NCBI RefSeq assembly: GCF_021021415.1
Contig: NZ_JAINWJ010000023.1
Span: 1-48,370, forward strand
Reading direction: 5' to 3'
Length of the DNA stretch: 48,370 nt
Origin: Martelella mediterranea
GTDB lineage: Bacteria > Pseudomonadota > Alphaproteobacteria > Rhizobiales > Rhizobiaceae
Part shown: piece by piece, positions 25,821 to 30,766 of the stretch
How positions within the stretch are numbered: position 1 is the first letter of the stretch
Layout: each line of letters begins with the position of its first letter
Notes under the pieces: generated by a model
Seen by the model: the letters and a program-made list of their open reading frames with translations, nothing else
Told to the model about the DNA's origin: nothing
Databases searched by the model: none
Position numbers and translations under genes: made by a program

Positions 25821-27134
25821 CTAAAACTGCTTGGTCACGAACAGCGAGACCGTGCTCTTGTTGTAATCATAGAGCTCGACATTCGAAAAATTCTGCGAAT
25901 AGGCATATTCCAGACGGGGCGCGAAGCCCTTCATCGCCAGCGTGCGGAATGTCGCGCCGACTTCGATATCGATGCGACGGTCGAGCCGCGGCTCGGTCAT
26001 CAGTGGAAAATCGCCGACATAATCCCTGAGCGTACCCGAGACCGCGATATCGGTGAGGATGCCACCTGACCATTCGCGCGCATATTTGGCGTTCAGATTA
26101 TAGCCGTCATAGGAATTGATGTCGTTTTCGGCATGGACGTAATTATACCCGCCGCCGAGGCGGATGCTGCTCGCCGCCGTCAGCGCGTAACGATGATTGA
26201 GGCTGAAACCGACCTGATAGCCGTCAAAGGCATCGACCTCGTCGTAATCCAGCCACTGATACGAGACATTGGCGGAAGTGACGCCGAAAGCCCCGAAGGA
26301 CCGGCGCACGGAAAACACCGGCCCGTAACCGGTGCGATAAGGCTCATTGCCCAGCAGCACCCGCTCGGCCGCGATGCCGCCGCTGAATATCCAGGGGTCC
26401 ATGCGCCAGGAAAGTTGCGAGAAGCCGCCGAACTGGGTCTGGTTATAGGCGGTTTCCTTGTAGGCAAGGCCGGTGACGGAACCGCCGAAGGTCAGCGAGA
26501 GATCGTCGACAAGTTCGAACGTGTAGGTGCCGTTCACGCCGTAGTTCAGACCGACGCCGCTTTCGGCCTTCTCGCCGGGCACAAGCGGAATGCCGCCGAT
26601 ATGGACGAGGTCCTCGTCGGTCGAATTCGAGATGTTGGTGCTGGGGGCGATCGCCACATAACCGCCGAGCGTCCATGGCCGGTCGAGATTCACGCGGTCG
26701 ATGAAATCCTCGTAGAAGGAGCGCAGCGATTCGCTCGGCGCATTGTCGGCGAGGATCGAGAAATGGTAGATCGCGGCCTTCTTCTCGCCCATCAGGGAAA
26801 GCGTATGGGCAAGCTCCTGGCGCACCCGCGACAGGTTCGGCTTTTCCGCGAGGATCGCGCGCATGATCCCCGCCGCCTCTTTCAGCTTCCCCTGGCGCTT
26901 CAGGATCAGCGCATAGGTGAATTTCTGCGACAGGGCGGACATTTCCGGGTCCCGGGTCAGATGCGCCGACAGCGCCATTGCCTGGTCATACTGGCCCGAC
27001 TCGATCAACATCTTGATCTCGGGAAACGGGTTGTCGGCCAACGCCGCGCCGCCGGAAAGGCCGACGACGACGAGTGCCACGGCGGCCGAAGCCGCCATGC
27101 GTTTCAGACCGAGAATGAGACGTGCGAACTGCAT
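25821..27134 (-). CDS. Slam-like outer-membrane surface lipoprotein assembly modulator
   Basis: A 437-residue protein with a signal peptide (about 1-34, ending GGAALA before DN). A helical TPR-like N-terminal part follows (about 35-165, with FTYALILKRQGKLKEAAGIM and VRQELAHTLSLMGEKKAA). The rest is a beta-barrel of alternating strands ending in phenylalanine (STVSLFVTKQF), the outer-membrane insertion signal. This is the Slam/DUF560 layout; Slam proteins move lipoproteins to the cell surface in Neisseria and relatives. The frame is open upstream to 27368, but that part overlaps the lipoprotein gene and is not conserved-looking. The ribosome-binding site is weak, so 27134 is a best guess. The upstream lipoprotein gene is its probable cargo. 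Confidence 0.82.
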   Translation of the reverse strand: MQFARLILGLKRMAASAAVALVVVGLSGGAALADNPFPEIKMLIESGQYDQAMALSAHLTRDPEMSALSQKFTYALILKRQGKLKEAAGIMRAILAEKPNLSRVRQELAHTLSLMGEKKAAIYHFSILADNAPSESLRSFYEDFIDRVNLDRPWTLGGYVAIAPSTNISNSTDEDLVHIGGIPLVPGEKAESGVGLNYGVNGTYTFELVDDLSLTFGGSVTGLAYKETAYNQTQFGGFSQLSWRMDPWIFSGGIAAERVLLGNEPYRTGYGPVFSVRRSFGAFGVTSANVSYQWLDYDEVDAFDGYQVGFSLNHRYALTAASSIRLGGGYNYVHAENDINSYDGYNLNAKYAREWSGGILTDIAVSGTLRDYVGDFPLMTEPRLDRRIDIEVGATFRTLAMKGFAPRLEYAYSQNFSNVELYDYNKSTVSLFVTKQF

Positions 27135-27286
27135 CCGATGACCGCGAACTCTGTACCAATGCGTTTCGCGACCGGATGGCTTCGCCCGAGGTCTGCGAAA
27201 AGGCTTCAAACACATGGAGAGAACGGTTGCGCTTTGGCGAAAGGGCAAAACCGCTCCATCGACCGGAATATCTCCCGAGGAACGAC

Positions 27287-27308
27287 CGCGGGCCGAAAGG
27301 GGCCCGCG
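27287..27308 (-). other. Hairpin between lipoprotein and Slam genes
   Basis: CGCGGGCC (27287-27294) pairs exactly with GGCCCGCG (27301-27308) around a six-base loop. It lies in the 190-base gap between the lipoprotein stop and the Slam start. There is no T-run on the minus strand. It may stabilise the lipoprotein message or reduce read-through into the Slam gene. Confidence 0.5.
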
Positions 27309-27324
27309 ATCGCTCCGGCGAGGG

Positions 27325-28119
27325 TCAGTTCCGGTCGGCGACGAAGGCGCCGACGGCGCCTGCGCCATCCAGCGACCCCTGACCGTTCAGCAGATAGGTC
27401 CCCGCCATGCCGGACGCGCCAGAGCCGTAGAACCCGCCCTCGACGCCGGAAGCCCCCTGGTTGATGACGCCGTAATCATTGCCGATCGCGATCGAATTGG
27501 CGTTCGAGTTGAACTCGGCCCCGGAAATGGTGGCATCGAAGGTGATGTCGCCCAGATCGCTTTGCATCGCGCCCGCAAGCTGACCGGCGCCGAAATCGAC
27601 ATTGGCCTGGAAACCGCCCTCGATATAATCGAGATACTGGCCCGGGATCGTCGCTCCGCCCAGATGGCTGCCGGTATAGGTCGCAAAGCCCGTGACCGGC
27701 ATGTCGGATTCAGCGGTCATGTCGTTGCTCGAGCGAAGCGCCATCAGGGTGAGCTCTTCGTCATTGTCATTGACGTCGATCAGGGCCACCACCGGGCCAT
27801 CCTTGACGTTCGGATTGTCGAAATAACCGAGCTGCAGATAGGCCTCGGCGTCGTCGGTCGTATAGCCGCCCGCGCCGTCGTAATAGAAGGTTCTGGTTTC
27901 CCCGGCATAGGGACCCTCGTTGATCTGAACGGTCACGCTGTCATCGTCGTTGACCTGAATACCGGCCTCCGCCGTCCCCGACCCGTCGATCCGGCCCGTG
28001 TCCCAGTTCACGTCCCCGTAATAGCCAAGCGCGTTGGTCGCGATGCCATCATTGCCATTGTTGCCACAGCCAGCCGCAAGCGCGGCCGCGCCCAGCACGA
28101 CACATGTCAGATATTTCAT
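27325..28119 (-). CDS. TbpB/fHbp-like surface lipoprotein, probable Slam substrate
   Basis: A 264-residue lipoprotein. The lipobox LAAGC puts the acylated cysteine at residue 18, followed by an Asn/Asp/Gly-rich linker. The C-terminal half has the pattern of the transferrin-binding-protein-like eight-strand barrel: TGFATYTGSHLGG, GGFQANVDFGAGQLAGAM, FDATISGAEFNSN, GGFYGSGASGMAGTYLLNG and the end GAVGAFVADRN. Such barrels are the known cargo of Slam. It is much smaller than TbpB (about 600 residues), nearer to the single-lobe haemophilin or factor-H-binding types. The ligand is unknown. No TonB-dependent receptor is adjacent. Confidence 0.78.
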   Translation of the reverse strand: MKYLTCVVLGAAALAAGCGNNGNDGIATNALGYYGDVNWDTGRIDGSGTAEAGIQVNDDDSVTVQINEGPYAGETRTFYYDGAGGYTTDDAEAYLQLGYFDNPNVKDGPVVALIDVNDNDEELTLMALRSSNDMTAESDMPVTGFATYTGSHLGGATIPGQYLDYIEGGFQANVDFGAGQLAGAMQSDLGDITFDATISGAEFNSNANSIAIGNDYGVINQGASGVEGGFYGSGASGMAGTYLLNGQGSLDGAGAVGAFVADRN

Positions 28120-28324
28120 TGTCCCTCTCCAGTCACTCGTCAGATTAACAAGTAGTTAACTTTCTCAATCTCCGCTAGCCATGTCAACCAGAGGTGAAAT
28201 AAATTATAGACTGCAACTCAGACAAGACGAATCGAGAAGAGGATCAGCGATTGTTCCGCTCCGGCAACCCATGTAAGAGAGCGGTACGTCATACCGGACA
28301 GGGCCGAGAGGAGACCATAATTCA
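28120..28324. promoter_or_regulatory. Divergent promoter region with TTAAC palindrome
   Basis: This AT-richer 205-base gap drives the lipoprotein gene leftward and the SapC-family gene rightward. A 15-bp dyad TTAAC-AAGTA-GTTAA lies at 28145-28159, 26 bases before the lipoprotein start, where a repressor could act. No Fur-like box is evident. Confidence 0.4.
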
Positions 28325-29077
28325 ATGACCACCCAAACCCAGTTGCCGCTTTTCTACAGGAAGCCGCAGGTACTGCGCTTCGAGGACCACAAGGCGATGG
28401 GGCTTGTCGGCAGCCAGGATTTTTCGTTCACGGCCGAGGCCACGGCAATCCCGCTGTCCGTCAGCGAATTCATGCCCTCGATCCGGCATTATCCGATCGT
28501 GTTCGTCGGCGGGAAAGAGCCCTCGCCGGTCGCGATCGTCGGGCTGAAGCAGGGCCGCAACCTGATGCTCGAGGAAGACGGCGCCTGGGCGGCGCACACC
28601 TACATTCCGGCCTATATCCGCCGCTATCCCTTCATTCTGGTGCAGTCGCCGGACCAGGATACCCGCTATCTCGCCTATGACAGCGAGAGCGGCCGCGTGA
28701 AACCGCTTTCGGATGCGCCGGACGCGGCGCCGATCTTCAACGAGGACGGCACCGCCAGCAAGGCGGTCGAACCGATGCTGCATCTGTGCGAGGCCTATCA
28801 TCAGCACCGCGCGCAGGACACCGCCTTCCTGAAGGCGATTTCCGAGGCGGATATCCTCGTCGCCCGCCATGTCGACATGGATTTCCCGGACAAGTCGCGC
28901 TATCGCCTCGACGGCTTCAGCGTGATCGATATCGAGCGCTACCGCGCGCTGCCGGCAAGAACCCTGAAGCAATGGACGGAAAAGGGCTGGACGGACGCGA
29001 TCGCGCTCCACCTCGCCTCCGCCCAGAACTGGGGCCTCCTGATGGAACGCAATCAGCGCTTCGTCAAAAGCGCCTGA
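28325..29077 (+). CDS. SapC family protein
   Basis: A 250-residue protein of the SapC family (PF07277), named after a gene of the Campylobacter S-layer locus. Typical parts are LPLFYRKPQVLRFEDHK, HYPIVFVGG, AAHTYIPAYIRRYPF, and NEDG in the middle with FLKAISEADILV and DGFSVIDIERY near the end. There is no signal peptide, so it is cytoplasmic. The biochemical function of the family is unsettled. It is divergent from the lipoprotein gene, so a link to surface-protein export is possible but unproven. GGAGACC lies somewhat far (about 12 bases) from the ATG. Confidence 0.87.
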   Translation: MTTQTQLPLFYRKPQVLRFEDHKAMGLVGSQDFSFTAEATAIPLSVSEFMPSIRHYPIVFVGGKEPSPVAIVGLKQGRNLMLEEDGAWAAHTYIPAYIRRYPFILVQSPDQDTRYLAYDSESGRVKPLSDAPDAAPIFNEDGTASKAVEPMLHLCEAYHQHRAQDTAFLKAISEADILVARHVDMDFPDKSRYRLDGFSVIDIERYRALPARTLKQWTEKGWTDAIALHLASAQNWGLLMERNQRFVKSA

Positions 29078-30039: not shown

Positions 30040-30543
30040 TCAGTTGCAGGTGCTGATCTTGTTCAGCGCCGCGGTGATGCCGATCAGGGAGTAGGTGTGG
30101 GACGTCTTGGTGCCGCGAGCGGAGGTGGCGTCCACCTCCATGGTGCGGCCGGCCTTCATGGCGGCCACCAGCGTCGGCTCCTGCGCGGCGTTTTCAAGCC
30201 AGCCGCCCTTGCCCTTGTGATACATCGGGAAGCTCTTGCCATCGACCACGACGTCGATGGTCGAACCCTCCTTGAGGGTGAAGCCCATCATCGCCTGCGG
30301 CTCAAGCGAAACGTTCTGGCCCGGATATTTGGTCACCACGAAGAAGTTGTCACCGTGATCGACATTGGACGGTTCCTTTTTGGCCGGCACCGAGAGGGCG
30401 TAGCACACCTTGCCGGCATCCGACTGGTAGGAATAGGCGACCCATGCGTCGAATTTCTGGATGGGCGTCGGCGTCTGCGCGGAAGCGATCGAGGCGCCGG
30501 TGAATAGAAGTACCAGTACGAGGACGATTCTTTTTGCAAACAT
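30040..30543 (-). CDS. Invasion-associated locus B (IalB) family protein
   Basis: A 167-residue exported protein. The signal peptide MFAKRIVLVLVLLFTGASIASA precedes Q. The mature part shows the IalB pattern: FDAWVAYSYQSDAGKVCYALS, FFVVTKYPGQNVSLEPQAMMGFTLKEGS, and the end SLIGITAALNKISTC. The two cysteines (KVCYA and STCN) probably form a disulfide. The family is named from Bartonella, where it aids red-cell invasion, but it is common in free-living rhizobia, where its role is unclear. The start at 30543 is chosen by signal peptide and AGGATC. A good terminator follows. Confidence 0.88.
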   Translation of the reverse strand: MFAKRIVLVLVLLFTGASIASAQTPTPIQKFDAWVAYSYQSDAGKVCYALSVPAKKEPSNVDHGDNFFVVTKYPGQNVSLEPQAMMGFTLKEGSTIDVVVDGKSFPMYHKGKGGWLENAAQEPTLVAAMKAGRTMEVDATSARGTKTSHTYSLIGITAALNKISTCN

Positions 30544-30766
30544 GTGATCCTGCCGATTTTCTCTGCTTTGGGCCGGTCGCGGCACCATAAAGATGCGCGC
30601 CCCGCGACTTTGAGACTTGTCCAAATACATACGCAAGCGAGGTTACCAAAATCTCAACACCGGAGCGTTTCCGGCCTTGCCCCGCTTATGTGCGTCCTGA
30701 CGATTATGCCACGACAAATGCCGCCAATCACGGCAAGATTGCGGCAGAGGGGGAATCGCATTCCAA

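Follow-up and report, generated by a model that had tools for sequence, protein, structure and literature searches.

Does a short locus of Martelella mediterranea encode an apparatus that carries a lipoprotein to the cell surface, and which of its genes belong to it? The locus (25821-29077) lies on contig NZ_JAINWJ010000023.1 of assembly GCF_021021415.1, in a stretch of 48,370 nucleotides that is called the window here; NCBI taxonomy places the genus in the Hyphomicrobiales. A prediction made earlier from the DNA letters (the original prediction) had located three genes in it, and we found them at the same positions: a Slam gene, a lipoprotein gene (the cargo) upstream of it on the same strand, and a divergent SapC gene. 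Arabinose-use genes and SapC are the neighbours of the pair. We consider, with a probability of about 0.9, that the cargo and the Slam form a two-gene type 11 secretion (Slam) module, predicted from sequence to export the lipoprotein to the surface. The family membership of both proteins, the conservation of the pair, purifying selection, and a hairpin between the genes are the grounds for this reading. The features are the following (aa, amino acids).

25821..27134 (-): Slam / type 11 secretion system (T11SS) outer-membrane protein, 437 aa; PF04575 at full length, signal-peptide-like N-terminus, TPR at residues ~37-151, SlipAM at 154-437
27279..27316 (-): GC-rich intercistronic hairpin without a U-tract, just past the cargo stop codon; in 8/9 Martelella gaps
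27325..28119 (-): cargo, putative surface lipoprotein, 264 aa, Cys18 the predicted lipidation site; PF01298, NF041636 below cut-off
27325..27702 (-): C-terminal TbpB-like barrel domain of the cargo, residues 140-264; PF01298 at residues 140-262 and profile matches
27703..28038 (-): N-terminal "handle" of the cargo, ~residues 28-139, less conserved by identity comparison; strands modelled in 51-130
28182..28187 (-): TTGACA, candidate -35 of the cargo-Slam operon; kept in 8/8 triad intergenic regions
28248..28280 (+): candidate SapC promoter element, similar in genome G008; read by eye from the alignment
28325..29077 (+): SapC-family protein, divergent neighbour, probably outside the export module; PF07277, 185.7 bits

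Family membership of the two proteins

The Slam open reading frame (ORF) spans 25821..27368(-), and a signal-peptide-like N-terminus begins at the start at 27134, which was chosen by eye. The search against Pfam revealed a SlipAM (PF04575) match over profile positions 1-288 of 288, with 94.2 bits against a cut-off of 22, and an N-terminal TPR match to TPR_19 (25.6 bits, cut-off 25). AlphaFold2 modelled residues 37-151 as helical, with blocks in 41-110 at a predicted local distance difference test score (pLDDT) of 81-89, and only the TPR region was matched among the best 60 of 208 PDB matches. The outer-membrane beta-barrel of Slam proteins has 14 strands. The terminal Phe was invariant across 16 aligned Slams, that of the window and 15 others from Alphaproteobacteria.

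The cargo has a lipobox (...ALAAGC, read by eye) with its cysteine at position 18, and G17 and C18 were invariant in 10 aligned cargos; this alignment (A2) has neither of the two cargos of G005 (the first is near-identical) nor the second cargo of G003, G009, or G010 (G, L, and C numbers are our labels for genomes, loci, and contigs). TbpB_B_D (PF01298) matched residues 140-262 in a single stretch with 44.7 bits (cut-off 26). The best NCBIfam match was NF041636, "Slam-dependent surface lipoprotein" (slam_lipo), over residues 102-253 only. A profile of the 10 Martelella cargos, compared with solved structures, reached barrels of established Slam cargos or of proteins akin to them, namely TbpB (1.2e-12), LbpB (1.6e-9), Gna2132 (1.4e-6; we take this to be NHBA), and hemophilin (5.3e-6), and factor H binding protein (fHbp) only at 0.053. 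The barrel had been described as "TbpB/fHbp-like"; the first half of that label holds and the second is weaker, and an fHbp-like identity of the window cargo was rejected (FHBP_C, E = 0.49, 11.7 bits against a cut-off of 28.1). The handle was less identical than the barrel in 9/9 comparisons, and its ratio of nonsynonymous to synonymous substitution rates (dN/dS) was above that of the barrel in 5/6 congeners, G009 being the exception. Its model placed strands in residues 51-130, with a block pLDDT of 66-72 for residues 51-90.

Conservation, selection, and the intercistronic hairpin

Thirteen Martelella genomes were compared, including that of the window. A Slam was present in 10 and this Slam in nine, and in all nine it adjoined a lipobox lipoprotein with a TbpB-like barrel. 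Twenty-three of the 101 relatives had a Slam match (22 over the cut-off), and the 13 with PF01298 were all among those 23. In 385 genomes of the class, 43 had a Slam (39 over the cut-off), 29 had PF01298 (23 over the cut-off), and 23 had both; a Slam was thus present in 23/29 genomes with PF01298 vs 20/356 without it (Fisher p 6e-20, not corrected for relatedness). The six class genomes with PF01298 and no SlipAM match all matched the Slam alignment, over TPR and barrel in G347, G278, and G457, partially in G167 and G127, and over the TPR region only in G446. The 14 control genomes gave no match to PF04575 or PF01298. The class counts draw on all 50 Slam matches, about half of the PF01298 matches, and at least one SapC match per genome; the omitted matches, judged by eye, alter neither the genomes that hold a family nor the pairs on one contig. 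Neighbourhood genes were called with a simple ORF picker that also returns shadow ORFs; the cargo and SapC of G005 and a second cargo of G010, hidden by such ORFs, were recovered via BLAST.

Both the cargo and the Slam gene are under purifying selection. Against six congeners, dN/dS of the window genome was 0.10-0.42 for the cargo, 0.03-0.21 for the Slam, and 0.04-0.17 for SapC; these figures are rough because dS is ~0.8-1 in several comparisons.

The gap between cargo and Slam in the window folds into a hairpin of -39.7 kcal/mol over 61 nucleotides (z score -5.8). The search for it, made within the genus, found a hairpin at the same place in 8/9 Martelella gaps, with gap folding z scores of -5.8 (G000), -1.9 (G006), -3.3 (G003), -2.4 (G001), -4.6 (G010), and -4.1 (G009), and a hairpin of the same kind in G005 and G011; the gap of G002 had a z score of -0.1 and a weaker hairpin further on (-13.4 kcal/mol). 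Such a hairpin downstream of a cargo gene is not confined to the pair, because the stretch past a cargo with no Slam behind it (L067) folds too (z score -5.6). In the alignment of eight of the nine gaps (A8), 88.6% of the stem cells were paired vs 28%-41% for slid partners, and 11 cells had changed on both sides vs a shuffled mean of 5.3, with 0/500 shuffles reaching 11; since G002, which has no hairpin there, was left out, these counts describe the hairpin-bearing genomes only. The covariation is only suggestive, because in a control the pairs with changes on both sides (4/11) were reached by 100/500 shuffles and the outermost stem pair was open in 5/8 sequences. The terminator search found no canonical terminator between cargo and Slam.

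Upstream of the pair, a TTGACA facing the cargo was kept in 8/8 genomes with the triad. It is a weak candidate for the -35 of the cargo, since a near copy occupies these alignment columns in G008, a genome without the cargo. The element upstream of SapC has a similar counterpart in G008; none could be recognised in G012 or G002. The consensus promoter scan reported neither of the two.

Several results weigh against an export module. The NF041636 score of the cargo (77.8 bits) was just under the cut-off of 80, which leaves it outside that family, and the Slam scored 28.0 bits with TPR_Slam, below the cut-off of 35.2. A PF01298 match within 3.5 kb of the Slam was seen in only at least 14 of the 43 class genomes with a Slam, that of the window included. 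Structure prediction, proposed as a check on the original prediction, recovered the TPR helices but did not resolve either barrel: with five input sequences each, the mean pLDDT was 38.4 for the Slam and 37.0 for the cargo, so the two folds were not independently confirmed. No OmpH/Skp protein above the cut-off was found in the window genome or the 101 relatives, by a profile search that a divergent Skp could escape. Set against the full-length PF04575 match, the PF01298 match, the pairing in every Martelella genome with this Slam, and the co-occurrence in the class, these points leave the compact pair of cargo and exporter, as originally predicted, in place.

The transport steps and domain roles that we propose are carried over from other systems, among them that of Neisseria. 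The cargo gene precedes the Slam gene, probably on one transcript, in which the hairpin would probably raise the abundance of the cargo over that of its exporter. The cargo would be synthesised behind a lipoprotein signal peptide, receive its lipid at Cys18, and remain unfolded across the periplasm, where the TPR region of the Slam may capture it; the Slam barrel would then let it cross the outer membrane, with the C-terminal barrel domain of the cargo acting as the address tag. It would end lipid-anchored on the surface, and the handle would be its working part. For the handle we can only guess at a non-haem ligand or an adhesive role.

Other clients, iron piracy, and SapC

The Slam may also serve several clients, which would be compatible with an export module and to which we give a modest chance. 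An orphan PF01298 lipoprotein gene with no adjacent Slam was present in 6/13 Martelella genomes, in the window genome on contig C32, and one near an S-adenosylhomocysteinase gene could be such a client. Against this, the adjacent cargo is kept in 9/9 genomes with this Slam and the orphan in only 6/13.

In 5/5 Martelella loci (L067-L071), the orphan gene lies between genes for S-adenosylhomocysteinase and an FGGY-type kinase; these neighbours were named by eye, and the hydrolase was confirmed by Pfam in L121 only. The orphan lipoprotein of L067 (1809-2642) also passes FHBP_C, with 28.8 bits against the cut-off of 28.1. In G002, the neighbours of the Slam-cargo pair (L054) are sugar-operon genes that are found beside the orphan cargo in other genomes, and SapC (L121) adjoins ahcY; the arrangement resembles the outcome of an inversion that broke at two cargo genes and left one of them.

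The window genome has a second Slam on contig C29, 46% identical to the first, in a locus (L063, 8575-11302) with a transposase gene (PF01527, 10910-11302) downstream. In four congeners the second Slam follows a second lipoprotein type of ~295 aa, whose tested representative (L065) had no Pfam match; the window genome keeps only the 3' part of this cargo gene, upstream of the second Slam. A record named "Marinicella sp. W31" (L184, 4848-7105) contains a cargo and a Slam 39% identical to that of the window, both with broken frames and resembling the second-type pair of Martelella by eye. Marinicella is a gammaproteobacterial genus, and the record name may be wrong. G446 holds a giant lipoprotein frame of 3156 aa (L185, 2-9466(-)) with nine tandem TbpB-like barrel ends by motif and five passing PF01298 stretches (160.6 bits in all). 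Loci L186, L187, and L105 belong with this observation. The candidate barrel stretches in G446 number 117, of which 10 were scored, and a TPR protein of 391 aa, which may be a divergent Slam, adjoins a 305-aa cargo there.

It is unlikely that the cargo takes part in iron or haem piracy, as a receptor akin to TbpB or hemophilin whose ligand is handed on to a TonB-dependent transporter encoded elsewhere. The relationship of its barrel to TbpB, LbpB, and hemophilin speaks for such a role, and the genome has three TonB receptor (PF00593) matches. However, all three are on other contigs, in agreement with the original statement that no TonB receptor is adjacent. Identity with the TbpB transferrin receptor was rejected, as the cargo has one PF01298 stretch and not two lobes and the window contig has no TonB receptor. 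The mature cargo is very acidic (isoelectric point 4.05) and contains a single His, which argues weakly against a haem pocket; its only Cys is the lipidated one. Inspection of the intergenic region, by eye only, showed no recognisable iron-regulatory site.

The original prediction had further taken the promoter region shared with SapC as a hint of a wider surface-protein system. SapC (cut-off of PF07277, 28.9 bits) starts divergently 205 bp from the cargo start. It adjoins the pair in 8/9 Martelella genomes, all nine hold a SapC ortholog, and in the class a Slam and SapC were nominally associated at genome level (14/82 vs 29/303, p 0.047, not corrected for relatedness). The link was not seen beyond the genus: in 0/16 sampled outside genomes holding both genes (13 of the class and three relatives) were they within 10 kb on one contig, a count in which adjacency on fragmented contigs could be missed. 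Within Martelella the absences run both ways, as G002 has the pair with SapC ~40 kb away, and a SapC ortholog is present in G008 (80% identity) and G012 (72% identity), which both lack this Slam; the promoter-like element upstream of SapC is also kept in G008, where the Slam and the cargo are missing from the locus. No signal peptide was visible in SapC by eye.

Elsewhere SapC has other company. Of 53 further SapC loci, 51 of which gave a SapC ORF, nine had an adjacent IalB gene, all nine confirmed by PF06776 (L120, L122-L125, L127, L129, L131, and L142); eight were among the 13 loci of the same order, taken from the relatives, and one among the 40 from the class. The 76 SapC neighbours in 38/40 class loci had no common partner, with at most four sharing a family among the best 25 of 88 families. 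An autotransporter gene is also near in L120, and in the window an IalB gene (30040-30636) lies one gene beyond SapC. A single functional surface-protein system made of the pair and SapC under a shared promoter region is therefore very unlikely; adjacency, co-occurrence, absence both ways, upstream regions, and the neighbour survey led us to reject SapC as a functional partner, and the local link stands. SapC is probably just a neighbour, because no adjacency was found in the sampled genomes outside the genus, it occurs without this Slam, and IalB adjoins it elsewhere instead.

It is very unlikely that the lipoprotein stays periplasmic and that export by the pair has been lost: the apparent lack of Skp would fit this, and the purifying selection on both genes and the conserved pairing speak against it.

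Skp and the comparison with known systems

In both E. coli and Neisseria, the transport of TbpB by Slam is described as depending on Skp (PMC9090332). Our search recovered the E. coli and Caulobacter controls, and its four weak matches among the relatives lay in frames 637-1055 aa long. If Skp is truly absent, the Slam here must use another holdase, unlike that of Neisseria. Tentatively, and at somewhat less than even odds, we suggest that Slam export in this branch of the Hyphomicrobiales would be Skp-free, with another chaperone or the TPR region of the Slam guarding the cargo and the hairpin setting the ratio of cargo to exporter. With Skp apparently lacking in 101 relatives, of which 23 have a Slam match, the Skp requirement published for the Slam pathway can be put to a direct test. 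For the hairpin, the puf operon of Rhodobacter capsulatus offers an analogy only: it too has a hairpin between genes of one operon needed in different amounts, and segmental mRNA stability has been argued, in the part of the literature at hand, to set the ratio of its products (PMC8625941).

Slam proteins with lipoprotein cargo are known from Neisseria and many other bacteria (PMC5449769, PMC9090332, and PMC8406197, as excerpted), and a Slam gene beside a lipoprotein gene is given for ~52% of 353 Slam homologues in an excerpt of one of these (PMC5449769). With Slam1 and Slam2 of Neisseria, which serve TbpB, HpuA, and fHbp, the Martelella pair shares a protein with TPR and SlipAM/DUF560 domains, a lipoprotein with a TbpB-like barrel, and gene adjacency. 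It differs in that the cargo is acidic, 264 aa long, and has one barrel domain, no TonB receptor is adjacent, and no Skp above the cut-off was found in the 101 relatives. Because the cargo is small and has no adjacent TonB receptor, the pair offers an uncomplicated setting for studying the function of Slam cargos outside animal hosts.

Closer to Martelella, Slam with lipoprotein cargo has been predicted in marine Alphaproteobacteria. The T11SS cluster 3 loci of Rhodobacteraceae/Roseobacteraceae likewise have an alphaproteobacterial Slam beside a predicted cargo lipoprotein; in the sections of that report seen here, the cargo has 282-375 aa and a C-terminal 8-stranded barrel, predicted and not experimentally shown (PMC12282271). 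Among the 43 Pfam-scanned proteins of the window there was no DUF1194, lactoylglutathione lyase, or thymidylate synthase, a difference from the cluster 3 loci, and the Martelella pair is located beside arabinose-use genes and SapC instead. Martelella was not named in the literature found, among the matches listed. The pair is thus a system of an established kind from a branch that has received little study, and with it Martelella joins the alphaproteobacterial Slam/T11SS modules.

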